Source: a virus. From it: a stretch of DNA of 20,995 bases. The stretch spans positions 1 to 20,995 of the IMG/VR virus record IMGVR_UViG_3300031919_000022, one strand, 5' to 3'. Positions 1 to 20,986 of the stretch are shown here, piece by piece (within the stretch, counting starts at the first letter, position 1; every line of letters starts with the position of its first letter). The position numbers and the translations under genes are program-made. The notes beneath the pieces were generated by a model, which saw only the letters and a list, made by a program, of their open reading frames with translations, was not told the origin of the DNA and did no database searches.

Positions 1-1299
1 TTTAATAAATTCTAATGGCATAACATCTCCTGTTTTTTCAGATAAACAGGTTAGGTCTTCCGCAAAACCTGTATAAATAGGTGCGCAATACCTTGAATTA
101 GTTCTATCATAAGGTTGCATTTGCATCAGTTCTAATTCAGCTAATAACATGAGACGTACTAATTCTTTGAATTGACTAACCATAGTCAAATTTTTAGCTT
201 CAACATGAACATGCAACCCACAAGTAGCATCTACATACCATTCTGCTTTTTCATTTAATACAGAAAAAACTGTACGTAGTTGTCTCAATCCTTCTTCACC
301 TTTAAGTGGTGGTGATACAATCTCTATACCATAAATTTGTGCGTTACAGTCGCGGTTGTGAATACAATCATAGCATTCTTGACCATGAACCTGACATTCT
401 TCACACATTCCATCAAATGGAGCAGAAATACTTCCATCTCCTGTTATTTTCCAACAATCTTTATACGTAGAAAATGTGTCTGTATCTAATATAACTTTAA
501 CTCCTGCTCTTTGTAACATAGTTTCTAATCTACCTGGTGATATACCAATAATTCCTTCTAATTCTACACCAAATTTATAAGTATTAAATATGTTTACATA
601 TGGTATATCTAACTCAGATACTGATTTATTATCAGTTTTTATTTCGCATCTTCCTATATAGGTCGAAGGTGGCATAGCCGCGTATGACCTCGTACTACGT
701 AAACAATGTTCTAACGTATTTATATTTGGTACTGTTATTATTCTTGCTGAGTCATCGCTTTGGTTTTCATCACTCCCACTATTTTCTTCTCTCACATTAA
801 TTTCTTCTCTCACATTAATTTCTTCTCTCACATTAATTTCTTCACCATCCCAATATTCACTATAGGAATCCACCACATATTGTTGACTTTCTTCCCATAT
901 ATTAATATCAACATCACGCTGAAGCAATAAATCTGTCACATAATCTGGAACACCATATTCATGACAGGTAGCATGCGGCATATCTATTTTTTGATGTAAA
1001 ATAGATAGAGAAGACGTTGGACTACGTTTTACTAGTATACCTACACTCCATTGTTTAACATAATATGAACCAGTATTTTTATGTAGTACAAAATCACCTA
1101 TAAGAGCTTCACTTATAGGTTTAATAGGAATTAAATCCTCTGTGAGACGTACTACGTGTACATTTACATTATTATGTATAATAGTACCTTCCACAGGTAC
1201 TGAAATAGTAGGTACTGAAGTATCACGTGGTATTATTCTATCTGGTAAAAATAATTTATAATAATTATTAAATTTTATCGCATATAACTTCATTGTCAT
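1..1299 (-). CDS. Amidoligase-like protein with short Cys-rich insert, partial (C-terminus off window)
   Basis: The 3' end is missing: 431 codons are present counting from ATG 1293, or 433 from ATG 1299. Both ATGs lie just downstream of a tandem SD array and either could be used. Numbered from 1293, residues 1-235 are unrecognised and include a charged linker with INVREE repeated three times (about 153-170). From about residue 241 the pattern fits the amidoligase_2 (COOH-NH2 ligase, glutamine-synthetase-like fold) family: FGVELEG (241-247), GDGSIS (285-290), GIEIVSPPLKG (322-332) and CGLHVHV (358-364). Such enzymes form amide bonds between a carboxylate and an amine using ATP; the substrate here is unknown. 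Cysteines 297, 300, 307, 310 and 316, between GDGSIS and EIVSPP, look like a small zinc-binding insertion. It is the second gene after the related 1353-2390 gene, 53 bases downstream of it, so probably the same mRNA. The family call is fairly secure; the reaction is inference. Confidence 0.75.
   Translation of the reverse strand, partial: MTMKLYAIKFNNYYKLFLPDRIIPRDTSVPTISVPVEGTIIHNNVNVHVVRLTEDLIPIKPISEALIGDFVLHKNTGSYYVKQWSVGILVKRSPTSSLSILHQKIDMPHATCHEYGVPDYVTDLLLQRDVDINIWEESQQYVVDSYSEYWDGEEINVREEINVREEINVREENSGSDENQSDDSARIITVPNINTLEHCLRSTRSYAAMPPSTYIGRCEIKTDNKSVSELDIPYVNIFNTYKFGVELEGIIGISPGRLETMLQRAGVKVILDTDTFSTYKDCWKITGDGSISAPFDGMCEECQVHGQECYDCIHNRDCNAQIYGIEIVSPPLKGEEGLRQLRTVFSVLNEKAEWYVDATCGLHVHVEAKNLTMVSQFKELVRLMLLAELELMQMQPYDRTNSRYCAPIYTGFAEDLTCLSEKTGDVMPLEFIK
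794..843. repeat. 18-bp tandem repeat inside amidoligase-like gene
   Basis: ACATTAATTTCTTCTCTC occurs at 794-811 and 812-829, with a partial third copy at 830-843 and a partial half-unit just before (781-793). On the coding strand it encodes the acidic repeat INVREE. The unit is a multiple of three, so copy-number change would keep the frame and only alter linker length between the N-terminal region and the ligase domain. Confidence 0.85.
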
Positions 1300-1303
1300 T
1301 TTT

Positions 1304-1331
1304 CTCCTTTCTCCTTTCTCCTTTCTCCTTT
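1304..1331 (-). promoter_or_regulatory. Tandem Shine-Dalgarno array (four 7-bp units)
   Basis: Four perfect copies of CTCCTTT on the plus strand read as AAAGGAG repeated four times on the coding strand. They fill much of the 53-base gap between the two amidoligase-like genes. The last copy lies 4 bases before ATG 1299 and 10 bases before ATG 1293. Each unit is a full ribosome binding site, so the array offers several alternative docking positions. Confidence 0.8.
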
Positions 1332-1352
1332 CTATTTTCTATTTATATAATT

Positions 1353-2390
1353 CTATCCTGCTAATGTAACGTCTATATTTGTTGTCTCTAACAGGGCGTA
1401 GAAGCGTTCTTTACTTCCATCATAGCCTTCTTCAACTGCAAGTACTAGTTTAGCTACACAATTTAATGCTTCTAGTATATCAACAGCATTATTAGTACCA
1501 TCAAATAATCTAAATTCAACAGTACCATGACAAACATATGCTGTGAAATTCAGTGTACAATACCTAACATCAAACCCTCCTAAATATTCAATATAAGTAT
1601 TACCATCTCCAATACTAGGTATAAAGTATTCAACATCATGTTTATTCAAACAAATGTCGTCGCTACCACATGTCTCCCACTTCTTAGCATATTCTTCTAT
1701 TCTATCGTCAACAGGACAGAAATAAGTTAAAAACTCTTCTTCTGCCCAATAATACCATGCTTGAGCTAATGCTTCTGCATGTTCTCCTGTCCAGCCATCT
1801 TTAGGCCTTACGTGCACGTGTAGACCACATGTTGCATATGGATTACTGTCGCCATCGAGTTTATCAATAATATCCATTACATCATTAACATAACACTGGA
1901 TATTATCTTGTCCATACTTAAGTACTTGAGAAGCAAATTCTGCACCCCATTCAGTATCGCTGTGATTAATAGAGGAGTCATTTTTTAATTCGCCCATTTT
2001 GCGAAGTTTATTATATAATTGTTCAACGCCTACGCGCTCTAAATATCCCTCTCCATTACATTCTGGACATGTTATATATAACTCCTCATAAGAACAATTA
2101 CAAGGAAGTACCCCTCTTCCTGAACAGATACCACAGATATGTTCATTATCATATTCATCATGAACATACCCATCTCCCTCACAGATAGGACATTCTATCT
2201 CCTCTCTACCATTACATGAAGGGCAAGTAATCGCAATTGCCCCACTACCTTCACAAATATCACATTCTTGATTATCTTCTGGACAGCAAAACTCTAATTC
2301 CCACCCTAACGTTAATAACTCGTCACCACCACCTTCGAGAAGGTCATATCCTCCTCTTAGTCTGTTTATGGCGTCGTGCACATACATCAT
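1353..2390 (-). CDS. Amidoligase-like enzyme with DnaJ-type zinc-finger insertion
   Basis: Residues are numbered from the upstream ATG at 2405. I prefer the start at 2390 because AAAGGA lies 6 bases before it, whereas 2405 has no SD. Amidoligase_2 hallmarks are WELEF (35-39), NDSSI (142-146), a segment at the usual E-x-xSP position (156-165), CGLHVHV (193-199), and C-terminal RYCTLNF plus TVEFRLFDGT (295-304). Between WELEF and NDSSI sits a cysteine-rich block (48-120) with CxxCxGxG-type units CDICEGSG, CPSCNG, CPICEGDG, CGICSGRG and CPECNGEG plus CNC. These resemble the DnaJ zinc-binding domain, which in DnaJ has four such units. Expected role: ATP-dependent amide ligation, with the zinc module possibly gripping a peptide or protein partner. 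It is the first gene of a leftward operon behind a long structured leader; a second, different amidoligase follows. Substrate unknown. Confidence 0.8.
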   Translation of the reverse strand: MMYVHDAINRLRGGYDLLEGGGDELLTLGWELEFCCPEDNQECDICEGSGAIAITCPSCNGREEIECPICEGDGYVHDEYDNEHICGICSGRGVLPCNCSYEELYITCPECNGEGYLERVGVEQLYNKLRKMGELKNDSSINHSDTEWGAEFASQVLKYGQDNIQCYVNDVMDIIDKLDGDSNPYATCGLHVHVRPKDGWTGEHAEALAQAWYYWAEEEFLTYFCPVDDRIEEYAKKWETCGSDDICLNKHDVEYFIPSIGDGNTYIEYLGGFDVRYCTLNFTAYVCHGTVEFRLFDGTNNAVDILEALNCVAKLVLAVEEGYDGSKERFYALLETTNIDVTLAG

Positions 2391-2430
2391 ACTCAATCCT
2401 TTCATTTTTATTTTAGAGATACTACCTCTT

Positions 2431-2501
2431 TAATACGCAGAAACACTACTGTACAATATCACCTCCTTAATGGTGGAACATAGCTATGTTTCTGCGCATT
2501 A
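2431..2501 (-). other. Long hairpin in the leader of the amidoligase operon
   Basis: A 14-base arm at 2431-2444 pairs with 2488-2501 with one mismatch (TAATACGCAGAAAC against TAATGCGCAGAAAC). The loop contains the palindrome AACATAGCTATGTT and an AAGGAGGTG Shine-Dalgarno that can itself pair with CACC in a small inner hairpin. On the minus strand that SD is followed 5 bases later by TTG and an 8-codon frame ending TAA (LYSSVSAY after TTG), which might be a leader peptide. It lies 26 bases upstream of ATG 2405. The structure is seen directly; a regulatory role is inference. Confidence 0.55.
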
Positions 2502-2525
2502 AAAAAGCAGCACTTCTGTACTGCT
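2501..2525 (-). terminator. Intrinsic terminator or attenuator, leftward
   Basis: On the minus strand AGCAGTAC-AGAA-GTGCTGCT forms an 8-bp stem (one G-U) followed by six T (2506-2501). It sits inside the leader, after promoter 2804-2832 and before the amidoligase genes. It would therefore cut off most readthrough unless antagonised, which makes it an attenuator candidate. Confidence 0.65.
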
Positions 2526-2797
2526 GTAATTTTACAGGGGAGGAGGGTGGTGAACCTCCCCTGCATTACTGCCACCCTGTGTTTCAGATGACTATATTGT
2601 TACTAATAATAATATAATGCATAATAATTAGTATACTACCGTATACACCGCATAATAGAGCTATTACTGCACCAAACCATTTACTATTCTAACACCTGTA
2701 AAAGGAGCTAAAGTTTTTCTATCTTTAGCTCTAACCCACTACTGCATCATTCCAGAATTCCAGAGGTATAACAATACCTCACCAATATCCTACAGTT
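2526..2797 (-). other. Hairpin-rich untranslated leader, amidoligase operon
   Basis: No credible gene is present. Four further inverted repeats occur. CAGGGGAGG / CCTCCCCTG at 2535-2543 and 2555-2563 is a perfect 9-bp stem, extended outward by GTAAT/ATTAC. GTATAC-TACC-GTATAC is at 2631-2646. GAGCTAAAG / CTTTAGCTC at 2705-2713 and 2723-2731 is followed on the minus strand by CTTTT, so it is terminator-like. GAGGTAT / ATACCTC is at 2763-2769 and 2774-2780. Together with the two preceding entries this gives about 400 nt of structured RNA between the promoter and the first gene. I do not recognise a known riboswitch class. Confidence 0.5.
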
Positions 2798-2803
2798 TTT
2801 TAG

Positions 2804-2832
2804 ATTATACAGGAGAACCTAGCTATTGTTAA
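2804..2832 (-). promoter_or_regulatory. Sigma70-type promoter, leftward
   Basis: On the minus strand TTAACA (2832-2827), a 17-base spacer and TATAAT (2809-2804) match the vegetative consensus closely. Transcription would begin near 2797 and run through the structured leader into the amidoligase genes. TGCACCAT repeats lie immediately upstream. Confidence 0.7.
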
Positions 2833-2858
2833 AGACCTGCATAACTCCTGTACATAAG

Positions 2859-2965
2859 TGCACCATTACATTCTCCTAGTCAGAAGCTATGAGAACATAA
2901 GGGTATACTTCTGCACCATAGATAGGGTACTTCTGCACCATAGAGATACAGCGTCACTGCACCAT
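2859..2965. repeat. Iteron-like TGCACCAT repeats upstream of a promoter
   Basis: TGCACCAT occurs at 2859-2866, 2912-2919, 2934-2941 and 2958-2965. The last three share the longer core CTGCACCATAG and are spaced 22 and 24 bases apart, about two helical turns. A degenerate copy (TGCACCAA) is at 2668-2675, inside the leader. The position just upstream of the promoter at 2804-2832 suggests binding sites for an activator or repressor. Confidence 0.6.
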
Positions 2966-2991
2966 AGAAAAATGATATATATTCCCTTTTT

Positions 2992-3026
2992 AAAAAAGGG
3001 AGAGAAAGTAGGTATTACCCTACCTT
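2992..3026 (-). terminator. Probable terminator after the 80-residue gene
   Basis: On the minus strand GAAGGTAGG and CCTACTTTC (3026-3004) form a 9-bp stem with one mismatch that overlaps the stop codon at 3015-3017. TCTCCC and six T follow. A second short palindrome, CCCTTTTTTAAAAAGGG, overlaps the T run. The T tract is about six bases from the stem, so the call is moderate. Confidence 0.45.
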
Positions 3027-3257
3027 CTCCATCACATTTAGACCGAATTTGATTATCCGCCCATTGGGTAATTCGGCCTTTTGCGTCAGTGACGCTAGGA
3101 CCCTACTCTTACCTGATTCAGACAGTTTGCCGGAAACTGTCTGAAGTTTGTCAATTGGCATTAAAATAGCCAATTGACCATGAATAACATCAATCACTGG
3201 AGTTATTCGTTCTTCGCTCATCTTTGCTTGAATACCATTTTTACTAATTTTTAACAA
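3015..3257 (-). CDS. Small protein of unknown function, 80 residues
   Basis: I do not recognise this protein. I place the start at TTG 3257 because GGAGG lies 9 bases upstream (3271-3267). A GTG at 3308 would lengthen it to 97 residues but has no SD; an ATG at 3221 also lacks one. From the TTG it begins (M)LKISKNGIQAKMSEERITP and ends PNGRIIKFGLNVMEKVG. It is soluble, mildly basic, and has no cysteine, signal peptide or membrane segment. A duplicated operator-like element lies directly upstream and a probable terminator overlaps its stop, so it seems to be a single-gene transcription unit. A small, individually regulated phage protein in this position could be an early host-takeover or inhibitor factor, but nothing in the sequence shows that. 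Confidence 0.6.
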   Translation of the reverse strand: MLKISKNGIQAKMSEERITPVIDVIHGQLAILMPIDKLQTVSGKLSESGKSRVLASLTQKAELPNGRIIKFGLNVMEKVG

Positions 3258-3285
3258 ATAAATCAACCTCCAAACCAAAATTTGA

Positions 3286-3463
3286 ATTTGAGTAGGTTTT
3301 TCAACCACTCAATTAATATAGTCGCGAAAAATCACCAAAAGGTCTGGTCATTTTAGAAAAAATTTAAAAAATTTTATCGAAAATTTGAATTTGAAATTTG
3401 AGCAGGTTTTTCAACCGCTCAATTATTATAGTCATGAAAAAGCACCAAAAGGTCTGGTCATTT
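3286..3463. repeat. Duplicated operator-like element with a covarying hairpin
   Basis: Bases 3286-3353 are repeated at 3396-3463, exactly 110 bases apart, with six mismatches over the last 63 bases. Each copy holds a dyad, GAGT-a-GGTT-TTTC-AACC-ACTC in the first and GAGC-a-GGTT-TTTC-AACC-GCTC in the second. The T-A pair of one is C-G in the other, a compensated change. Each also contains the small dyad ACCAAAAGGT, and on the minus strand TATATT or TATAAT, a possible -10 box. It separates the 250-residue gene from the 80-residue gene. Confidence 0.7.
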
Positions 3464-3465
3464 GG

Positions 3466-3502
3466 AAAAAAAAAAAAAAAAAATAAGCCTGTTAAACAGG
3501 CT
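3466..3502 (-). terminator. Strong intrinsic terminator, leftward
   Basis: AGCCTGTT / AACAGGCT (3502-3495 and 3493-3486) is a perfect 8-bp stem with a 1-base centre, in practice a 3- to 5-base loop. After TA comes an 18-base T run on the minus strand (A run 3466-3483). It starts 13 bases after the TAG of the 250-residue gene. Confidence 0.9.
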
Positions 3503-3515
3503 AAAAACAACTTGT

Positions 3516-4268
3516 CTATTGTGCGGCCAAACAATCACGCAAAGTACGACGCGTTTTTGCGTACGTTTCTTTGGAAACATTTTGTCTTCCAATATCTTCC
3601 AAAATGCATCGTAGAGCCACTCTTTGTGCGGGCGTCTTCACTTTTTCCGCCACGTCTATCATTGTGTCGATGAAGTGTTCCTGCTCCCAGGCGAAAAGGG
3701 ATACGTGATATTCTGTGGTGGCACATTCCACCGAATATTCCTCTCCATTTTCTCCCATATACGTGGAAGAAACTTCCTGGATATTTTTATACGTTTTGAC
3801 AATATATGCCAATATACGTAGTGCGACGGTGAATGAAGCTCGAAAATACAGCGATACGATGTATTTTCGATATTCGCGACTGGTCCGCATCCGCACGCCA
3901 GCCCCAGCCAAGGAGTGATTTCTACGCAGGAATTCCATCGCCAAGACGTAGGATTCCTGTTTCACGTCCTCATATTGGAGATATTGTTCCAGGCCCTGAA
4001 GCACAGGCGGCTTTGTACGCATATATTCTTGACAGACCTTCCCTGTGCCGTCCGTATATTCTACCACGCGGTTTTTCCGTGTTTTGACGCGGTTGTTCAG
4101 TACTCTATGCACTATTTTTTCTACCAATTTTTCCTGGTTGAATACGTCGCCCATATATTCTATACGCGATATATTCTCCTTTTGGCTGTTGTGATACCGT
4201 TTCCACTGACCTGTTATACGTGTTTGCATTTCCTCGGTTATTATTTTTTCGCTTGTAATTTTTAACAT
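3516..4268 (-). CDS. Unrecognised 250-residue protein, possibly a divergent sigma-like factor
   Basis: The start at ATG 4268 is supported by AGGAGAG about 9 bases upstream. The protein is basic and mostly helical, with no signal peptide or membrane segment. Two stretches faintly resemble RNA polymerase sigma factors. LQYEDVKQESYVLAMEFL (about 97-114) resembles the acidic region-2 helix (D-x-x-QE-x-hydrophobic). TPAQRVALRCIL through VSKETYAKTRRTLRDCL (about 212-247) resembles region 4, though the middle of the helix-turn-helix is short. This is weak and could be chance; I found no catalytic motif. Its upstream DNA has a cluster of GTCTCA/TGAGAC operator sites and its 3' end a very strong terminator, so it is separately controlled. 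Its DNA is visibly richer in GC than the neighbouring genes, suggesting a different origin. Confidence 0.6.
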   Translation of the reverse strand: MLKITSEKIITEEMQTRITGQWKRYHNSQKENISRIEYMGDVFNQEKLVEKIVHRVLNNRVKTRKNRVVEYTDGTGKVCQEYMRTKPPVLQGLEQYLQYEDVKQESYVLAMEFLRRNHSLAGAGVRMRTSREYRKYIVSLYFRASFTVALRILAYIVKTYKNIQEVSSTYMGENGEEYSVECATTEYHVSLFAWEQEHFIDTMIDVAEKVKTPAQRVALRCILEDIGRQNVSKETYAKTRRTLRDCLAAQ

Positions 4269-4301
4269 TTTAATATCTCTCCTTTTTTGTTATTTTTTGG
4301 T

Positions 4302-4371
4302 GTCTCATTAGTGAGACATGTCTCATTTTTAAGACATGTCGCATTTTTAAGACATGTCTCATTAGTGAGAC
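4302..4371. promoter_or_regulatory. Operator cluster upstream of the 250-residue gene
   Basis: The dyad GTCTCATTAGTGAGAC occurs identically at 4302-4317 and 4356-4371. Between them AGACATGTCKCATTTTTA repeats with an 18-base period (4314, 4332, 4350), each unit containing the palindrome GACATGTC. The cluster ends about 34 bases before ATG 4268, so it lies in the 5' untranslated region or over the promoter. The GTCTCA/TGAGAC core recurs many times at 5062-5477, implying one shared binding protein. Confidence 0.65.
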
Positions 4372-4436
4372 TTTACGAGACGTACAATTTTTTACATTTA
4401 TCTAGCATACCCCCCCACCCTATTTTTTTTTGTCTA

Positions 4437-4654
4437 ACTGTAGCACTGTATTACTGTCGTACTTTCTTACTTTCCTACTTTCTTACTTTAACACTTTCCT
4501 ACTTTCTTACTTTAACACTTTCCTACTTTAACACTTTCCTACTTTAACACTTTCCTACTTTCTTACTTTCTTACTTTCCTACTTTAGCACTTTAACACTT
4601 TAGCACTTTAACACTGTAGTACTGTAACACTTTAACACGGTAAAGCACTGTATT
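4437..4654. repeat. Octamer tandem array (27 units)
   Basis: From 4437 the sequence reads as 25 octamers in perfect phase to 4636, then a 10-base unit and one more octamer. Units are ACTTTCCT, ACTTTCTT, ACTTTAAC and ACTTTAGC, with ACTG variants at both ends. ACTK is fixed apart from ACGG in the 10-base unit, while the second half varies. The period of 8 is not a multiple of three and no SD precedes any frame, so it is not coding. Such short direct repeats occur in origins and partition or replication-protein sites, but no specific role is shown. Confidence 0.85.
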
Positions 4655-4747
4655 TATTTATTTTTTTCCTGTATAAATACTTCGATAGCATGTCCAATTT
4701 TCCTTTTTTCCATACTCAAGTATATTGTATACACATCGACACATTGT

Positions 4748-4889
4748 GACAGTGTGGTTGTCATGCTGTGTTTCAATTCCTCATAGGTAAACTAAAAACT
4801 GTATTTTCATAATCAGACATAGAAATCATCTCCTCGTTTCAATTCCTCATAGGTCAGCTAAAAACTCGACAGTGTGGCTGTCATGCTGT
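4748..4889. repeat. 22-bp direct repeats flanking the mini-CRISPR
   Basis: The segments 4748-4769 and 4868-4889 differ at one base and start GACAGTGTGG. In the right copy GACAG-TGTGG-CTGTC is a perfect hairpin; in the left copy the last pair is G-T. The left copy abuts the first CRISPR repeat and the right copy lies two bases after the second. The order is hairpin, repeat, spacer, repeat, hairpin, so the CRISPR unit is bracketed by a direct duplication. Confidence 0.8.
4770..4865 (-). CRISPR. Phage-borne mini-CRISPR: two 30-bp repeats, one 36-bp spacer
   Basis: Repeats at 4770-4799 and 4836-4865 begin GTTTCAATTCCTCATAGGT and end CTAAAAAC, matching at 28 of 30 positions. The spacer is 4800-4835. 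On the minus strand each repeat ends GGAATTGAAAC, giving the ATTGAAAC 5' handle known for type I-B and some type III crRNAs, so I assign the minus strand as crRNA sense. Repeat and spacer lengths fit those systems. No cas gene is in the window, so any function must rely on host Cas proteins. Possible roles are a guide against a competing phage, or an RNA anti-CRISPR decoy of the kind described for solitary repeat units in phages. The structure is clear; the role is not. Confidence 0.8.
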
Positions 4890-4908
4890 TAAGTAAAAAT
4901 ACTTGACA
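4887..4908 (+). repeat. Exact 22-bp repeat shared with the late promoter, copy 1
   Basis: This segment is identical to 9395-9416 and contains the dyad AAGTA-AAAA-TACTT followed by TTGACA. At 9395 the TTGACA is a promoter -35 box; here no -10 box follows at 16-18 bases. It directly adjoins the right hairpin repeat of the mini-CRISPR. It may be a regulator binding site. Confidence 0.75.
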
Positions 4909-4931
4909 GGGGTGGGGTAGCCAGACCGCGA

Positions 4932-4964
4932 CGCTGTGTCATTGCTTGTTAAGCATACACAGCG
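4932..4964. other. Stable hairpin near the mini-CRISPR
   Basis: CGCTGTGT (4932-4939) pairs perfectly with ACACAGCG (4957-4964), and GCTT/AAGC pair again inside. There is no T run on either side, so it is not an ordinary terminator. The surrounding 4909-4940 stretch is unusually GC-rich for this region. Confidence 0.5.
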
Positions 4965-5119
4965 ATTTCTCACAATTTTTTGTAAAATAGCTTTCCTTTT
5001 TTCCTGCAAGTATTTCCGCACTACACTTTTCAACAGGGAGAAGGATTTTAAGACATTCCATTGAGACATTTGAGACATTTGTGACATTCTTAAATTAGAA
5101 ATGTCTCAACAAATGTCAC

Positions 5120-5152
5120 AAAAAAAATCCCTCAACCATGCGGGTTAGAAGG
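5120..5152 (-). terminator. Possible terminator, leftward
   Basis: The stem 5129-5152 (CCCTCAACC paired with GGTTAGAAGG) has one bulge and one mismatch and is followed on the minus strand by eight T (A run 5120-5127). It resembles the better terminator at 5383-5423. Confidence 0.45.
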
Positions 5153-5156
5153 TCGC

Positions 5157-5308
5157 TGAGACAAAAGTGACATTTATTTTTATAAAAAACATATATTATA
5201 TAAGGCGTACACACACAAATAATTTTTAATCTTTCCCTGTTATTTTTGTGTGTGTATGTCCTCTTAGGATTTAATATATATCTCTAAAATTATGTCACTT
5301 TTGTCTCA
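5157..5308. other. Nested inverted repeat, candidate replication origin
   Basis: The outer arms TGAGACAAAAGTGACAT (5157-5173) and its exact complement (5292-5308) are 17 bp without mismatch. The inner arms TACACACACAAATAA (5208-5222) and TTATTTTTGTGTGTGTA (5240-5256) pair with two extra T. AT-only stretches with ATATATTA/TAATATAT lie between. The 152-bp near-symmetrical layout, flanking binding-site repeats, AT-rich core and lack of genes fit an origin. A centromere-like or regulatory site is possible. Confidence 0.5.
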
Positions 5309-5382
5309 AAGACCCCTCAGCCCAGTCACAGCAAGGGTTTCAGTGAGACATTCCAGATTTTGACAATGTCACAAAGAAAATC

Positions 5383-5423
5383 AAAAAAAACCCTCTAACC
5401 CAAGCTGGGCAAGGGCTAGAGGG
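5383..5423 (-). terminator. Intrinsic terminator of the replication operon
   Basis: CCCTCTAGCCC and GGGTTAGAGGG (5423-5413, 5401-5391) form an 11-bp stem with one G-U pair, followed by eight T on the minus strand (A run 5383-5390). It is the first strong terminator after the last leftward gene (stop 5571). Confidence 0.85.
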
Positions 5424-5570
5424 CTGTGACAAAATGTTTTAAGAAATGTCACAAAAAAATGTCACAAAAATGTCTCACACATAGGAAATATTATTAAACA
5501 TCACAGTATTTTATCAAATACGGACTTTTCGACATTTCTGTCGGAAAGTACAGAATATATAAAGAGTATT

Positions 5571-5729
5571 TTACTTATCCTTCTTCAACATATGTTGCAC
5601 AGCAACATTGCCACATTTTATACATAAATACTCAATTCTAGTTCCGTCAGCATACTTATTCATTTTATCAATAGCCATAGGTATACCACATTTTCTACAT
5701 CTCATTGATACATATTTCTTACATCTCAT
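5571..5729 (-). CDS. Zinc-ribbon-like protein, 52 residues
   Basis: Starting at ATG 5729 after AAGGAGGGG 6 bases upstream, the frame encodes MRCKKYVSMRCRKCGIPMA... with CRKCG (11-15) and CIKCG (36-40). Two CxxC pairs 21 residues apart are the usual four-cysteine zinc ribbon, with a basic N-terminus and C-terminus. Small zinc ribbons of this kind often bind nucleic acid or another protein; the specific role is unknown. It is the last gene of the leftward replication operon. Its SD and start lie inside the 3' end of the preceding, TGA-interrupted frame (overlap 5719-5729). That suggests translational coupling and that the upstream frame is or was translated to its end. Confidence 0.75.
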   Translation of the reverse strand: MRCKKYVSMRCRKCGIPMAIDKMNKYADGTRIEYLCIKCGNVAVQHMLKKDK

Positions 5730-5928
5730 TATTACACCCCTCCTTTTTTAGGGGACACTGCTCATTTTTAAATATTGTTACACACCATGAATCTTCATAT
5801 TTGCGTACGTGATATTCAATCCCACAGAATAACAGTGAAGTTGTTAAATCTTCAACCTTAGTCCTTTTATTAAGTCAAACTTTTACATAATCTAAACACA
5901 TTACACATTCCTCCTTAACAGTAATCAT
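5719..5928 (-). pseudogene. Small Cys-containing gene interrupted by in-frame TGA
   Basis: From ATG 5928, which overlaps the previous stop as ATGA, the frame reads MITVKEECVMCLDYVKV and then TGA (5877-5875). It continues open in the same frame as LNKRTKVEDL...CGIEYHVRKY to TAA at 5721-5719, 69 residues if the TGA is ignored. The second part has no start codon or SD of its own yet looks like protein and reaches the next gene. TGA serves as an ordinary stop elsewhere here (for example 5927-5925 and 9412-9414), so general recoding is unlikely. It could be a nonsense mutation, a programmed readthrough (context TGA CTT), a sequencing error, or a 17-residue peptide followed by chance open frame. 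No function is recognised. Confidence 0.45.
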
Positions 5929-6041
5929 TTTTTCTCCTCCCATCTGCAACACCAAGTATCAATAGTCACCTTCTGTTTAAACATACACTCAATAAAGTAT
6001 TTGCAGTTCCCACATCTTTGTTCTTTCTTTGGTATTCTCAT
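5925..6041 (-). CDS. Cysteine-rich small protein, 38 residues
   Basis: The frame starts at ATG 6041 with AAGGAGGAG 7 bases upstream. That SD overlaps the stop of the primase-helicase gene. The product MRIPKKEQRCGNCKYFIECM... has CGNC (10-13), C19 and CC (31-32), a spacing compatible with binding one zinc ion. Its TGA overlaps the next ATG (ATGA), the classic sign of coupled translation. It is a member of the leftward replication operon; the role is unknown. It is short, but the SD, overlaps and cysteine pattern make it believable. Confidence 0.65.
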   Translation of the reverse strand: MRIPKKEQRCGNCKYFIECMFKQKVTIDTWCCRWEEKK

Positions 6042-6054
6042 AAGTATCTCCTCC

Positions 6055-8862
6055 TTAAAATTCTAAGGTATCATCATCATTAGCAGCACAGATTTCCTGT
6101 AAATCATCATTATTGATAGCCCTATAATTGAGCATTAGACAACGAAGTTGATTGCCTGTTGACTGTAAACGTGCCCTGACGTTGTTCTTTACGAAGAAGG
6201 GTTCTTTCTTTATGTAATCCAGAAGCACAGTACGTTTAATATCAGCATCAGGATAGTTTTTAACCCATGTATCATATACACCTTTAAACCATAGTAATAT
6301 TGTGTTGTTTTCAATCTTATAATGTTTACCATTGAGTAATTTACCATCTAACATTAGTACAGTCATGTCAGAGAAAAACTTTGACACTGTGTGGTCGCTT
6401 TCAGTTATTTCTTTAGTTTCTGTAGCTTTGCTACTTAACCAGTTAATAAAATCTAACTTATCTTTCTCTGTTAAAACATGCTCGAACTCGTGGAGAAATG
6501 CTCCTGCAAACACAGATACGTTTTTAGCAAGACGTCCATCTATGTCTTGTGACATTAATCTGTCTTGTATGTAATCTATTTTAGCTAATAACTTCTCTGA
6601 ACCTTCACGTTGTTTCTTAGTAGCGAAGTGTAACCCTAAAGATGGAAAGTGTTGAACTAGGTCGAGCATATGTGTTAATGCGTTGTTGTCCCTCTCGTAT
6701 GCAGAAATTTGAATATTACAGCAACGCGAAAATACAGCGTTATTATCAGGAGTATCCTCTCCACTAAGTAGTAAAAACCCTCTGATTTTTTCTGCTCTAA
6801 CACCAAAACCTGACTTAATACCTTTATCAGCACCTTGCCTGTTATACGCACCGAGCAAAAATTCATCGCGGTGTTTAATATCTTTAAGATTGTTTTTATA
6901 ATCGTCATACCACAGCGGTAACGAGGAATAGTACCCTAATTTTCTGGTCATACTAACTATAGAGGGCATGGCGAAGTTCTTACCATCTATATGTGGAAAC
7001 CCGTAAGCAGACATTAACCACCGGGCAAGGTAGGTCTTTCCGCTATTACGTTTACCATTTATAAAGAAGATAGGAAACGATTTATCGCCTTTATGATTGT
7101 AGATTGCGTTACTGTGCCATCCAGCCACTATAAAACCTAGTGAAAGCCATGCATTAAATGTACCTAAGTTGGTTTTCAATGTGTAAGCAACATCTTTTAA
7201 ATAATCATCAGTTATTTCTTCAATTACGTCTGGTTTGGTTGGCATGTATGTCTCATCATTATCATCTACAATGTTAAGATTACGTACCATGTAGCTCTTA
7301 TCATCTAAAGTGATAATGTTATTATCATCGCAAGTTATAATCTGCCCTTTATTATCTATACCATAACGTCCCATTATCCAAATATCGTTTACTTGTCCTA
7401 TGTGGTCAGGTGAGTGAACGATATTTTCTTCTTGTTTAAGTAGAATTTCGTTAAGTGCTATTAGGTCTTTAAAATCACCTTTGAATATATAGTTACCTGC
7501 TTTTTTACACTCAGCCATGAAATCCATAGGCCTAGTAAGTGTCTCTGCTGTGAAAATAACTTGCCTACTGATTTGCCCCCGTTCATTTTCTAATTTACAT
7601 ATTCTAACATGATTACCATCAGCTTCAATAGTATGGAGTAGATGAATAACAAAATTAGAAATACAGACTTCTGCGATACCTTCATTAGTATGAACTGTTT
7701 TATAATAACATTTGTTCTTCTGGTATATATCAGCGTCAGCATCATTTTTTTCTTGATTACACTGGTTATATCTCTTATATGCGTTATTATATGCTTTAGT
7801 TATTATAGTTTTACTTATTTTAAGGCTAGCTTTTAGTGTGTCTACGAAAAGCATAATCTTAACTTCATCCTGTAAAGCTAAGAATGTGTAATACCATGCA
7901 TCATATTTACTAAGTATATCAGGTGTTTCTTTAGCTGTTGCTATAAAGGTTTTAGGTGTTGCAGGAATATAGGTTTGTGTGGTAAAATATTTATATAGAA
8001 CTTCCTTATTTCCTCCACAATTATACATATAATAATCACTAACATCATTAAATCTTGTAGGTAAAGATATAGTATATAATTTATCTGGAAACGTAGCTGC
8101 AATTGTTTTTAAAAGTTTTAGCCCTGCTTTATCTTGGTCAGGAACAGCTATTATTTTATTAAATTTAGTAAGTAAATTACCTAAATTTTCTGTACTGGTT
8201 TCCCATGCAGTAGCTCCGGGGACACCAATAGCTTGTAATCCGGCTTGTATAGCAGTTAAAGCATCTGTTTCACCTTCAAATATATAAAGATAATCATTAT
8301 TATAATTTTTAAGGAGGTCTAAACCATATATGGTATTACTACCTTCCGTAAATGTATATTTATTAGTACCTTCAAATTTAAGACGTTTTTTAACAGCTAA
8401 TATATCCCCATCTGCTCCGTAAAATGGTATAACAACACCTTTAATAATTTCACCATTTCGCACGTGTTTATGATTATCTATACCACGTGATTTTAAAAAT
8501 TCTATATCGAAACCTTTAAATTCAGCAAAATTTTCTAATGTAACAATGTTAGGGTATTCTAACTTAAAAATTTTTCTAATATCTTTAACAGCGTTCTCTA
8601 TACTATCGAATAACCCCATCTCTACTAGTAATTTAGGTGCAGTACCACCTATACCACATGCACCATAACAAACCCAATCCCACCCTTGTCCTTTGGAGGT
8701 TTTGTCATAGATTGCTAAACTAGTACCTTTAGTTTCTTTATGAATGGGGCACTTAGTTAAATAGACGTATTTGCCTTGTTTTATAAAGTCATTATCGTTA
8801 TAGTTTAGGTAATATTTCATTACGTCTATTAGTGATAAATTGTTTATTAGCAATCGTGACAT
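6055..8862 (-). CDS. Primase-helicase (zinc-binding, Toprim and P-loop ATPase)
   Basis: This 935-residue protein probably makes RNA primers and unwinds DNA at the phage fork. The start at ATG 8862 has AAGGAGG 8 bases upstream. Domain order: a DnaG/gp4-type zinc-binding region with CPIH (38-41) and C65, C69; a Toprim domain with EGETD (196-200) and DQDKAG (242-247), whose acidic residues bind metal; a long middle region I cannot assign; then a P-loop ATPase with GKRNSGKT (603-610), a Walker-B-like LPLWYDDY (648-655) and LLLSGEDTP (697-705). The ATPase looks more like the superfamily 3/AAA+ type of phage and plasmid primase-helicases than the hexameric DnaB type, but I am unsure of that. It is the second gene of the leftward operon, 3 bases after the ribbon-helix-helix-like gene. 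Confidence 0.88.
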   Translation of the reverse strand: MSRLLINNLSLIDVMKYYLNYNDNDFIKQGKYVYLTKCPIHKETKGTSLAIYDKTSKGQGWDWVCYGACGIGGTAPKLLVEMGLFDSIENAVKDIRKIFKLEYPNIVTLENFAEFKGFDIEFLKSRGIDNHKHVRNGEIIKGVVIPFYGADGDILAVKKRLKFEGTNKYTFTEGSNTIYGLDLLKNYNNDYLYIFEGETDALTAIQAGLQAIGVPGATAWETSTENLGNLLTKFNKIIAVPDQDKAGLKLLKTIAATFPDKLYTISLPTRFNDVSDYYMYNCGGNKEVLYKYFTTQTYIPATPKTFIATAKETPDILSKYDAWYYTFLALQDEVKIMLFVDTLKASLKISKTIITKAYNNAYKRYNQCNQEKNDADADIYQKNKCYYKTVHTNEGIAEVCISNFVIHLLHTIEADGNHVRICKLENERGQISRQVIFTAETLTRPMDFMAECKKAGNYIFKGDFKDLIALNEILLKQEENIVHSPDHIGQVNDIWIMGRYGIDNKGQIITCDDNNIITLDDKSYMVRNLNIVDDNDETYMPTKPDVIEEITDDYLKDVAYTLKTNLGTFNAWLSLGFIVAGWHSNAIYNHKGDKSFPIFFINGKRNSGKTYLARWLMSAYGFPHIDGKNFAMPSIVSMTRKLGYYSSLPLWYDDYKNNLKDIKHRDEFLLGAYNRQGADKGIKSGFGVRAEKIRGFLLLSGEDTPDNNAVFSRCCNIQISAYERDNNALTHMLDLVQHFPSLGLHFATKKQREGSEKLLAKIDYIQDRLMSQDIDGRLAKNVSVFAGAFLHEFEHVLTEKDKLDFINWLSSKATETKEITESDHTVSKFFSDMTVLMLDGKLLNGKHYKIENNTILLWFKGVYDTWVKNYPDADIKRTVLLDYIKKEPFFVKNNVRARLQSTGNQLRCLMLNYRAINNDDLQEICAANDDDTLEF

Positions 8863-18338: not shown

Positions 18339-20986
18339 TGGCACAAATAAATTTACCCCACAGTTTAACAGAAGGTACAACAGCGTTTGCAACACAAGTA
18401 ATGAATAATTTAAATGCTATAAAAAATACTATAAATGCTGGTATACAGTCAGACAATATAGAAGATTTAGCAGTAACAACTACAAAAATAGCAGATTTAG
18501 CTGTTACAGCCGCAAAAATAGCAAACAGTAATATAACCACAGATAAAATAGCAGATTTAGCTGTTACAGCCGCAAAAATAGCAAATGATGCTGTAACAGA
18601 TGTTAAAATAGGTACACGTACAATAGATGATGCTACTGTTACAGCTTATACAAATACAGCAAAAATTACAGATTTACTTTCTCTTATAGTAAAAACTGTA
18701 AAAAATTTAAAAGGTACAACTAATTGGTATGATGATGGTGCAGACACAATTACAAATTTAAATAGTAGAATAATAAGTAATGATGCAGATATTACTAATC
18801 TTCAAAATAATAAAGCAGATATATCTTATGTAGATACACAAGATAATACTTTACAAGCTAATATAACTAATTTAGAAGGAGCAGGGCGTACTACTGAAAC
18901 AGTTAAAGCTACGTATGATGATTTACAAAATCATAAAGGATTAAATAATAATCCTCACGCTGTAACAGCAAGTCAAGTAAATGCATATTCAAAAACGGAA
19001 TTACTGACAAGTGGTCAAGCACAAGTACACTGGGAAAATTTAACTAATGTACCAGCAATGGCAGATGATAGCTGGAAATCTCCTGTAGCCACTATAGCAG
19101 ATTTACCTTCTACTGGTAACATAGACGGCGATTTAAGAATTGTTTTAGATGAAGATACTGTTTATACGTGGGACGCAAGCACTTTAGCGTGGATAGCAAT
19201 AGGAGCTAGTGGTAATGGCATAACTGACCACGGTTCTTTGAAAGGATTATCAGATGATGACCATACGCAATATTTAAGAACGGATGGTACACGAGCATTA
19301 ACGGGTAATCAGGATTTTGCACAAAATCAGGCTCTTAACATGGTGGAACATAAGGGTATTGCTTTTCCTGTTACTCCTGTTGTTGGGCAAAGATTTTTCA
19401 GAACAGATTTAGACCACGCTTTTGTTTACACAAGTACCGGAGAATGGATAAAAGTAAGCGGATATGGTTCATTGCTTAGACGTGAAAAATTTACAGCGTC
19501 TATAACAGGATATGAACAGTTTACATTAGTAGATGGACAATATGAATTAGGTAAAAACGCATTATTGGTTTTTGTGAATGGTAACATCGTAGACCATACA
19601 GAGGATGATACAACACATTTTACTGTTACCGTTACTAGTGGGGATACAGTTTTGGCGTGGTATCTTCAAAATTCACCTGCTGTAACTATTCAAGCAGACG
19701 GTACTTTGCAAACTAACTTAAACGCTGATATGGTTGATGATAAACATTTTGCAGATATACAGGTAGATGCACAAGCAAGAGTAGATGAGCTAGCAGGTAC
19801 AGGAAGAACAACCGAAACTGTAAAGCAAAATGCTGATAACCATGATGCACATTTGGCCGAAACTGTGATAAAAACCAGCAAAACGATTAACGTCCCCGCT
19901 GATTACGCCACAATACAGGAAGCTTTAGACAGCCTCAAATACACCTGGATTCCCGACGATATTACCGTTACAATTTCGGTCGCAGCTGGGACGCACTTGC
20001 ATACTAGCCAGATTAGTATCACTCACTCTTGTGGAAGCCAGATACAGATAATCGGTGCAGACCCTATTACCACCACTATTACGAGCGTTGGCACAGTTAC
20101 CGGCGCAGCAGGAGCCTGGAGCGTACCGATAAACGTAACCAATGCGACAGGTATGGCCGTAGGAGACTATGTTATCATTCGAAATACTGCTGGAACAGAC
20201 GACCACTATGCCCATCGTGGAATTTGGGAGATAACAGCAATTAACGTTAACACGGTAACGGTAAAGAATACTCACCAATCTGGTATTTTCCCGAGTGCTA
20301 CTTTGAGCGGTGGGGATTTTATCTGTCTAAAGACCGTCTTGAAGTTTAATAATTGCAACGGGATAGTTTCCTGTCACGCCAATCTGGGGCTGCTTGACAA
20401 AGTAGCAGTTGTCGGAAACGGTACAAGCGGATACTCAGGCGTAGTAGTCGGGAGCAGTACGACAATTCCTTCTAATGCCAGCATTGTTTGCGGAAGCAGC
20501 ATGGGTGTCAATGGTTTCGGCTCTCGCGGCTTCTATGCCCTATACTCCAGCAGTATCGAAGCCCCTTCCAGCACCGCAAGCGGGAACGGCTCTTACGGCT
20601 TCTGTGCCGAATACTCCAGCAGTATCAGCACCTATTCCAGCACCGCAAGCGGGAACGGCTCTTACGGCTTCTGTGACCTATACTCCAGCAGTATCCGCGC
20701 CGATGCCAGCACCGCAAGCGGGAACGGCTCTTACGGCTTCTGTGCCGATTACTCCAGCAGTATCCGCGCCTATTCCAGCACCGCAAGCGGGAACGGCTCT
20801 TACGGCTTCTGTGCCTTATACTCCAGCAGTCTCCGCGCCGATTCCAGCACCGCAAGCGGGAACGCTAGTTCGGATTATTTTGCTTCGAAGATGGGATACA
20901 TTTACTGCTACAGCTACCAGGGCACGCCTACGTTCTCACCGGCGCTGAACACCGAGGGCAATGGCAATGCGATAATTACTACCTAA
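18338..20986 (+). CDS. Tail fibre / receptor-binding protein with beta-helix tip
   Basis: This 882-residue protein has GGAGGTG 9 bases upstream. Residues 1-120 contain repeats of the KIADLAVTAAKIAN type typical of tail-fibre shafts. A trimeric coiled-coil-like part follows (NNKADISYVDTQDNTLQANI) with GAGRTTETVK, then LSDDDHTQYLRTDGTRALTG, a motif common in phage fibres. GTGRTTETVK recurs near 490. From about residue 512 (INVPADYATIQEALDSL) begins a pectate-lyase-like beta-helix ending in four-plus 23-residue repeats of the YSSSIRAYSSTASGNGSYGF kind. No clear depolymerase active site is visible. The DNA becomes much GC-richer near 19,870, at the start of the beta-helix, suggesting the tip was acquired from elsewhere. 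It should bind the host surface. Confidence 0.85.
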   Translation: MAQINLPHSLTEGTTAFATQVMNNLNAIKNTINAGIQSDNIEDLAVTTTKIADLAVTAAKIANSNITTDKIADLAVTAAKIANDAVTDVKIGTRTIDDATVTAYTNTAKITDLLSLIVKTVKNLKGTTNWYDDGADTITNLNSRIISNDADITNLQNNKADISYVDTQDNTLQANITNLEGAGRTTETVKATYDDLQNHKGLNNNPHAVTASQVNAYSKTELLTSGQAQVHWENLTNVPAMADDSWKSPVATIADLPSTGNIDGDLRIVLDEDTVYTWDASTLAWIAIGASGNGITDHGSLKGLSDDDHTQYLRTDGTRALTGNQDFAQNQALNMVEHKGIAFPVTPVVGQRFFRTDLDHAFVYTSTGEWIKVSGYGSLLRREKFTASITGYEQFTLVDGQYELGKNALLVFVNGNIVDHTEDDTTHFTVTVTSGDTVLAWYLQNSPAVTIQADGTLQTNLNADMVDDKHFADIQVDAQARVDELAGTGRTTETVKQNADNHDAHLAETVIKTSKTINVPADYATIQEALDSLKYTWIPDDITVTISVAAGTHLHTSQISITHSCGSQIQIIGADPITTTITSVGTVTGAAGAWSVPINVTNATGMAVGDYVIIRNTAGTDDHYAHRGIWEITAINVNTVTVKNTHQSGIFPSATLSGGDFICLKTVLKFNNCNGIVSCHANLGLLDKVAVVGNGTSGYSGVVVGSSTTIPSNASIVCGSSMGVNGFGSRGFYALYSSSIEAPSSTASGNGSYGFCAEYSSSISTYSSTASGNGSYGFCDLYSSSIRADASTASGNGSYGFCADYSSSIRAYSSTASGNGSYGFCALYSSSLRADSSTASGNASSDYFASKMGYIYCYSYQGTPTFSPALNTEGNGNAIITT
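18485..18585 (+). repeat. 41-bp direct repeat in fibre shaft
   Basis: Bases 18485-18525 are identical to 18545-18585, 60 bases apart. Both encode KIADLAVTAAKIAN-type shaft residues. The identity at DNA level points to a recent duplication of 20 codons. Confidence 0.85.
20543..20880 (+). repeat. 69-bp tandem repeats in the fibre tip
   Basis: Units start at 20543, 20612, 20681, 20750 and 20819 (the last one diverges after about 45 bases). Each encodes 23 residues, YSSSI-x4-S-T-A-S-G-N-G-SYGFC. The variation is concentrated at the two residues after YSSSI and in the last two of each unit, while the GNGSYGF core is almost unchanged. Confidence 0.9.

Follow-up and report, generated by a model that had tools for sequence, protein, structure and literature searches.

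Two tandem Amidoligase_2 genes with unlike cysteine-rich insertions, predicted to bind zinc, in an uncultured tailed phage

Judged by their sequences, two neighboring genes of an uncultured tailed phage, here called P1 and P2, encode in tandem two different proteins of the Amidoligase_2 family, and each protein carries a cysteine-rich insertion at a different place in the ligase domain. The gene pair is real and not an artefact; the enzyme family is known, but its architecture here is unusual. What appears to be new is the paired arrangement with predicted zinc arms, which was not found elsewhere; Amidoligase_2 as such is known in phages.

The window, that is, the whole stretch of DNA analysed, is a phage record of 20,995 bases from IMG/VR whose gene content includes terminase, portal, head, tail-fibre, and primase genes. 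P2 and P1 are co-directional and lie at the left end of the window with a spacing of 53 nt, and both frames are intact (Table 1). Given the candidate terminator-like hairpin upstream of P2, P2 and P1 could be transcribed as a separate unit.

Table 1. Positions in the window of the two ligase genes, their parts, and flanking elements
Feature	Residues	Position	Strand	Basis or remark
P2	350 aa	1353..2405	-	Complete Amidoligase_2 gene
P2 GWELEF	34-39	2289..2306	-	First strand with metal-site glutamates E36 and E38 (E-x-E); G34, E36, and E38 invariant in the 50-sequence alignment
P2 DnaJ-type cysteine-rich insertion	44-121	2043..2276	-	Matches to PF00684, DUF5351, and 1exk; cysteine positions
P2 remaining ligase core	124-341	1383..2036	-	Profile match (E 5e-39), conservation, fold
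P2 CGLHVH	193-198	1812..1829	-	Alignment conservation
P2 E-F-R	297-299	1509..1517	-	Alignment conservation
P1	at least 433 aa	1..1299	-	Amidoligase_2 gene; 3' end past the contig edge
P1 N-terminal extension	1-235	595..1299	-	No known family; low-confidence model
18-nt tandem repeat, in frame (EEINVR), within the P1 extension		765..843	-	Repeat analysis
P1 N-terminal portion of the ligase core	240-415	55..582	-	PF12224 match at 240-415; alignment
P1 insertion, C-x2-C-x6-C-x2-C-x5-C	293-324	328..423	-	Between strands 2 and 3
Repeated GAAAGGA, Shine-Dalgarno-like stretch		1300..1340	-	Directly upstream of the P1 start
Terminator-like hairpin		2506..2525	-	Upstream of P2; consensus scan only

Both proteins match the Pfam profile PF12224 (Amidoligase_2), P1 with an E-value of 1.7e-22 (80.9 bits) and P2 with an E-value of 2.2e-10 (41.3 bits), and both exceed the curated cut-off of 22 bits; the match is to PF12224 and not to PF14395 (COOH-NH2_lig). 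Both also match PHROG 2443, 'amidoligase enzyme'. The first-pass annotation had described two adjacent phage amidoligase-like genes and proposed a profile search as a check, and the search bears it out. It had also ascribed the pattern E-L-E, D-S, E-x-xS(P), and CGLHVHV to both proteins. The motifs are present in both, in the order FGVELE, DGSIS, cysteine insert, EIVSPP, and CGLHVHV in P1 and WELEF (residues 35–39), cysteine array, NDSSI, EFASQ, and CGLHVHV in P2, except that P2 has SQ and not SP.

Relatives for comparison were phage and prophage sequences, with alignments of 50 and conservation at each position taken over 162. All 15 columns that are invariant among the 50 aligned relatives are kept in P2 (G34, E36, E38, D143, S145, E156, C193, G194, H196, H198, R281, N286, E297, F298, and R299), and the family residues G-x-E-x-E, D-x-S, E, H-x-H, R-Y...N, and E-F-R are all present; D143, S145, E156, H196, H198, R281, N286, E297, and R299 are the core residues at 124–341. 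The P2 structure model is confident in the core, with a pLDDT of ~92 for the first strand (residues 32–42) and of 78–92 for most core blocks. In the PDB, the P2 model matches 1tt4, a YbdK-type ligase (Z 11.9, rmsd 3.9, 214 aligned), 1r8g (Z 11.6), the plant glutamate-cysteine ligase 2gwc (Z 11.1), and glutamine synthetases (Z ~10), and in Foldseek YbdK ranks first (E 2e-3). Among viral structures it matches amidoligases from phages to a giant virus, with E-values down to 1e-8, as well as a phage protein annotated as 'LIM domain' (A0A6J7X2B6). Structure prediction, also proposed at first pass, therefore returns the YbdK/glutamate-cysteine ligase/glutamine synthetase fold (Z 10–12) with the active-site residues kept, and the model supports a GS/GCS-type fold of carboxylate-amine ligases for P2.

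P1 retains the family-invariant positions that fall within the window, G-x-E-x-E, D-x-S, E, and H-x-H, and its core residues are E246, E248, W283, D288, S290, E326, C360, H363, and H365. The final conserved R...E-F-R segment is missing because the window ends there. The core of the P1 model has a pLDDT mostly >70, the insert excepted. With half of the domain past the contig edge, this model matches mostly common ferredoxin-like structures in the PDB and one glutamine synthetase (Z 6.6), and these matches are given no weight for the fold of P1.

The insertion in P2, ~78 residues long, sits directly behind the E-x-E strand. It contains the cysteines C48xxC51, C61xxC64, C72xxC75, C91xxC94, C102xC104, and C113xxC116, and thus has five CxxCxG motifs, which is far beyond chance (mean 0.13 and maximum 3 in 20,000 shuffles). 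A DnaJ-type CxxCxGxG block between WELEF and NDSSI had been read from the letters, and it is indeed there. The comparison with the DnaJ zinc-domain profile is less clear-cut: the insertion matches PF00684 (DnaJ_CXXCXGXG) with an E-value of 8.6e-7 over the entire model length, but its 29.6 bits are just below the curated cut-off of 32.7, and therefore we term it 'DnaJ-type' and not a PF00684 member. It matches DUF5351 with an E-value of 1e-7, above the cut-off of that family, and DnaJ 1exk with an E-value of 0.0025. The cysteine spacing is mirror-like (48/51, 61/64, 72/75 versus 91/94, 102/104, 113/116), and we infer nested pairs, 48/51 with 113/116, 61/64 with 102/104, and 72/75 with 91/94. 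The insertion is thus probably a hairpin with three predicted Cys4 sites; in the structure model its pLDDT is <50. The central zinc domain of DnaJ (1exk) likewise has nested CxxCxGxG repeats. DnaJ differs in having two zinc sites and four motifs, whereas P2 reads as a three-site protein without a J domain.

In P1 the five cysteines noticed between GDGSIS and EIVSPP are confirmed as C299, C302, C309, C312, and C318. They lie in a loop, from D-x-S to E-x-V-S-P, of ~33 aa, compared with 3–11 aa in relatives. The two CxxC motifs of P1 on their own are near chance (p 0.035), and the loop length is a stronger fact than these motifs. The insert taken on its own has no Pfam match.

Enzymes of this superfamily use ATP to phosphorylate a carboxylate at a two-metal site, and attack by an amine follows; the catalytic residues of the superfamily are present in P1 and P2 where the window covers them. 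A DnaJ-type arm, in its known setting, is a peptide-binding module. The likeliest role, which we favor with moderate confidence, is that P1 and P2 are ATP-dependent peptide- or protein-modifying ligases in tandem, whose zinc arms would help to hold the substrate. If the analogy with glutamine synthetase, glutamate-cysteine ligase, and YbdK holds, catalysis in each enzyme would run through an acyl phosphate: two metals would form the site where the carboxylate is activated, and condensation with an amine would follow. Behind the E-x-E strand, the P2 arm would form a hairpin of the DnaJ type that probably has three Cys4 sites, and the P1 arm would be a small Cys4–5 knuckle placed between its strands 2 and 3. 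With zinc bound, the arms would serve as docking points for a peptide or a protein, so that P1 and P2 modify different residues or separate targets. Zinc binding, ATP use, the peptide substrate, and the division of labor between P1 and P2 are all putative. So are the first-pass proposals of substrate choice by the zinc modules, of two different linkages, and of mutual action; no sign that one enzyme acts on the other was found.

A different and rather unlikely possibility is that P2 is divergent and catalytically weak or dead, and forms a hetero-oligomer with P1 in which it acts as a regulator or substrate-binding subunit via its zinc hairpin. GS-family enzymes are commonly oligomers, and P2 has lost residues at positions that are 91–98% conserved among the 162 relatives (W111 to G, P131 to Q, R198 to D, K262 to D, and W266 to A). 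Because of these deviations its activity may be altered, reduced, or lost. Its branch is also very long, at 2.69 changes per column, which makes its placement in the tree unsure. However, the metal-site and E-F-R residues are all kept, and other lineages that are open and evidently maintained likewise lack SP or the last-motif QH: L125/L127 have SR/HR there, and gut-phage enzymes have LF. At position 254, ten of the 162 relatives have F, as P2 does. Since some of its deviations are also found in other intact lineages, they are no proof that P2 is dead.

It is doubtful, too, that the pair makes small gamma-glutamyl-amine metabolites, as in nitrogen or cell-wall precursor chemistry, with zinc modules that are merely structural. 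The nearest solved folds, YbdK and glutamate-cysteine ligase, are small-molecule ligases. In related phages gamma-glutamylcyclotransferase is a neighbor, its gene being present in 31 of the 50 phage records listed with an amidoligase, which fits chemistry of the gamma-glutamyl-amide type and is in keeping with the favored reading as well. A cell-wall change that blocks superinfection, proposed for phiEco32 by Iyer 2009 as cited in PMC10580990, also speaks for small-molecule products, and such a change would fit several of the readings of P1 and P2. Small-molecule synthesis, however, leaves the DnaJ-type arm unexplained, and there is no gamma-glutamylcyclotransferase gene (GGACT, PF06094) within the window, although one could lie past the left edge. 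That neither a substrate gene, nor the cyclotransferase, nor an amidotransferase is visible within the window counts against the favored reading too.

Ordinary tandem duplication, with diverged and largely redundant copies in which the insertions are neutral passengers, is improbable. As first noted, the two proteins are divergent, with 24% identity over 116 shared columns, whereas P1 shares 35–39% identity with the enzymes of other phages and is thus nearer to them than to P2. A quick tree places P1 and P2 apart; a tree constrained to unite them in a clade is 17.8 log units better than this free quick tree and is not rejected (p-AU 0.79), which suits redundant copies. Against neutral passengers, the five regular CxxCxG motifs, symmetrically spaced, suggest zinc sites that are maintained. 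Because the insertions of P1 and P2 are at different places, they are separate events, and to this extent the earlier proposal that they were independently acquired stands; it does not extend to the enzymes, for which a shared origin by tandem duplication is not rejected. The enzyme pair goes back either to tandem duplication or to separate capture, and the tree favors no decision.

That the ligases act in host regulation, with zinc modules that attach to nucleic acid or draw in RNA polymerase or a chaperone of the host, is hard to credit, since the similar CxxC arrays in phage Q-type antitermination proteins (a weak phrog_127 match; tblastn) are short and weak matches and the insertion lies inside the catalytic domain, directly behind the metal-site strand.

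The relatives collected are a sample limited by motif patterns and not a census. Among the 164 sequences listed in the final profile search, two Amidoligase_2 genes occur in the window alone, and a second such gene is present in none of the 50 other whole phage records listed with one. No insertion of the P1 type or the P2 type is found among the relatives listed, and therefore conservation gives no proof that the insertions are important. A set of 299 genomes from one bacterial phylum contains no adjacent whole Amidoligase_2 genes, the gut phages and LUZ24 inspected have no second PF12224 gene, and IMG/VR yielded no near relatives of either P1 or P2. Several apparent pairs were rejected: the two matches of L157 are one split gene, the double rows of G020 and G032 are pieces of a single frame, and the neighboring partial matches of G146, from the set of 299, look like pieces of broken genes. 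The phage itself has terminase relatives on six contigs (25–74% identity). No amidoligase is found in these six; the closest, L008, stops short of the equivalent region. An extension of the left edge, sought by exact DNA match and with the neighbor genes 6055–8862 and 3516–4268, was not found.

Other parts of the window have features of their own. The ORF at 3516–4268 (minus strand, 250 aa) has a G+C content of 44% compared with 34% for the window, has no confident family match, and has no relative found in IMG/VR. Mostly intergenic DNA at 3278–3482 contains a 110-nt unit in nearly two copies that are 86% alike. The intergenic region 4270–6055, beside the primase gene, is repeat-rich: it contains 18-nt palindromic repeats at 4301–4371, an 8-nt tandem array of ACTTTCCT/ACTTTAAC at 4445–4657, and scattered GAGACATTTGTGACAT-like repeats with inverted repeats at 5056–5470, and is possibly a replication origin. 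At positions 1–6100 of the window there are 15 terminator-like hairpins, compared with 2.4 expected in shuffles. At 20518–20864, in the C-terminal part of the tail-fibre gene, a 69-nt repeat occurs five times (89% alike) with SSSIRADASTASGNGSYGFC-like units.

The novelty of the pair is limited by precedents, namely cysteine arrays on viral amidoligases, a DnaJ domain in phage polymerases, and ligase pairs of the LUZ24 type. Known phage amidoligases of PF12224/PHROG 2443, for example those of Bacillus phage 031MP004 (gp40), Geobacillus phage GR1, and Arthrobacter phage Kovu (gp97), share with P1 and P2 the profile family, the invariant residues, and the location on a phage. Unlike P1 and P2, they are single, without internal cysteine insertions, and often beside gamma-glutamylcyclotransferase.

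In the LUZ24-type cluster, a COOH-NH2 ligase (PF14395) and an Amidoligase_2 enzyme occur with a glutamine amidotransferase, a RimK-like ATP-grasp enzyme, and gamma-glutamylcyclotransferase. As in our phage, two amidoligase-type enzymes are thus found within one phage operon; in contrast, the LUZ24-type pair spans two Pfam families and lacks a zinc-type insertion in its Amidoligase_2 member, whereas P1 and P2 are both PF12224. None of the partner enzymes is seen in the window, which ends at P1. Prophage phi13 of Clostridium clostridioforme LM41 has two near-adjacent amidoligase annotations (ORFs 35 and 37, PHROG 2443) and a gamma-glutamylcyclotransferase (ORF 39); the excerpted description mentions no zinc insertions, and ORFs 35 and 37 could both stem from a single split gene (PMC11318856).

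Zinc-type modules on an Amidoligase_2 core have a counterpart in six viral amidoligases (L122, L123, L125, L127, L128, and L131), which have an N-terminal array of at least five CxxC motifs, and in the LIM-annotated A0A6J7X2B6. The modules of the six are N-terminal extensions, and in those tested Pfam recognizes neither a zinc family nor a DnaJ-like domain, whereas the modules of P1 and P2 are internal. Together with the 'LIM domain' structure match, these arrays suggest that amidoligases have gained zinc modules more than once. A CxxCxGxG zinc module inserted in a phage enzyme is also known from the HMO-2011-type DNA polymerase, which contains a partial DnaJ central domain; the polymerase has two motifs, and the P2 ligase has five CxxC and one CxC (PMC9038755). 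Amidoligases thus join HMO-2011-type DNA polymerases as phage enzymes with an inserted DnaJ-type module.

Amidoligase_2 is widespread in phages, and a reported substrate was not found in the literature consulted. The unlike, removable arms offer a handle on what an Amidoligase_2 pair binds: the P1 and P2 arms alone would be usable as bait, and arm deletions could part catalysis from recognition. It is quite improbable that P1 and P2 form a two-enzyme protein-tagging system, in which the DnaJ-type three-zinc arm of P2 would capture unfolded or specific peptide segments of a target and the ligases would then each add a different amide or isopeptide bond to it. If true, this would in principle be a phage counterpart of pupylation or glutamylation.
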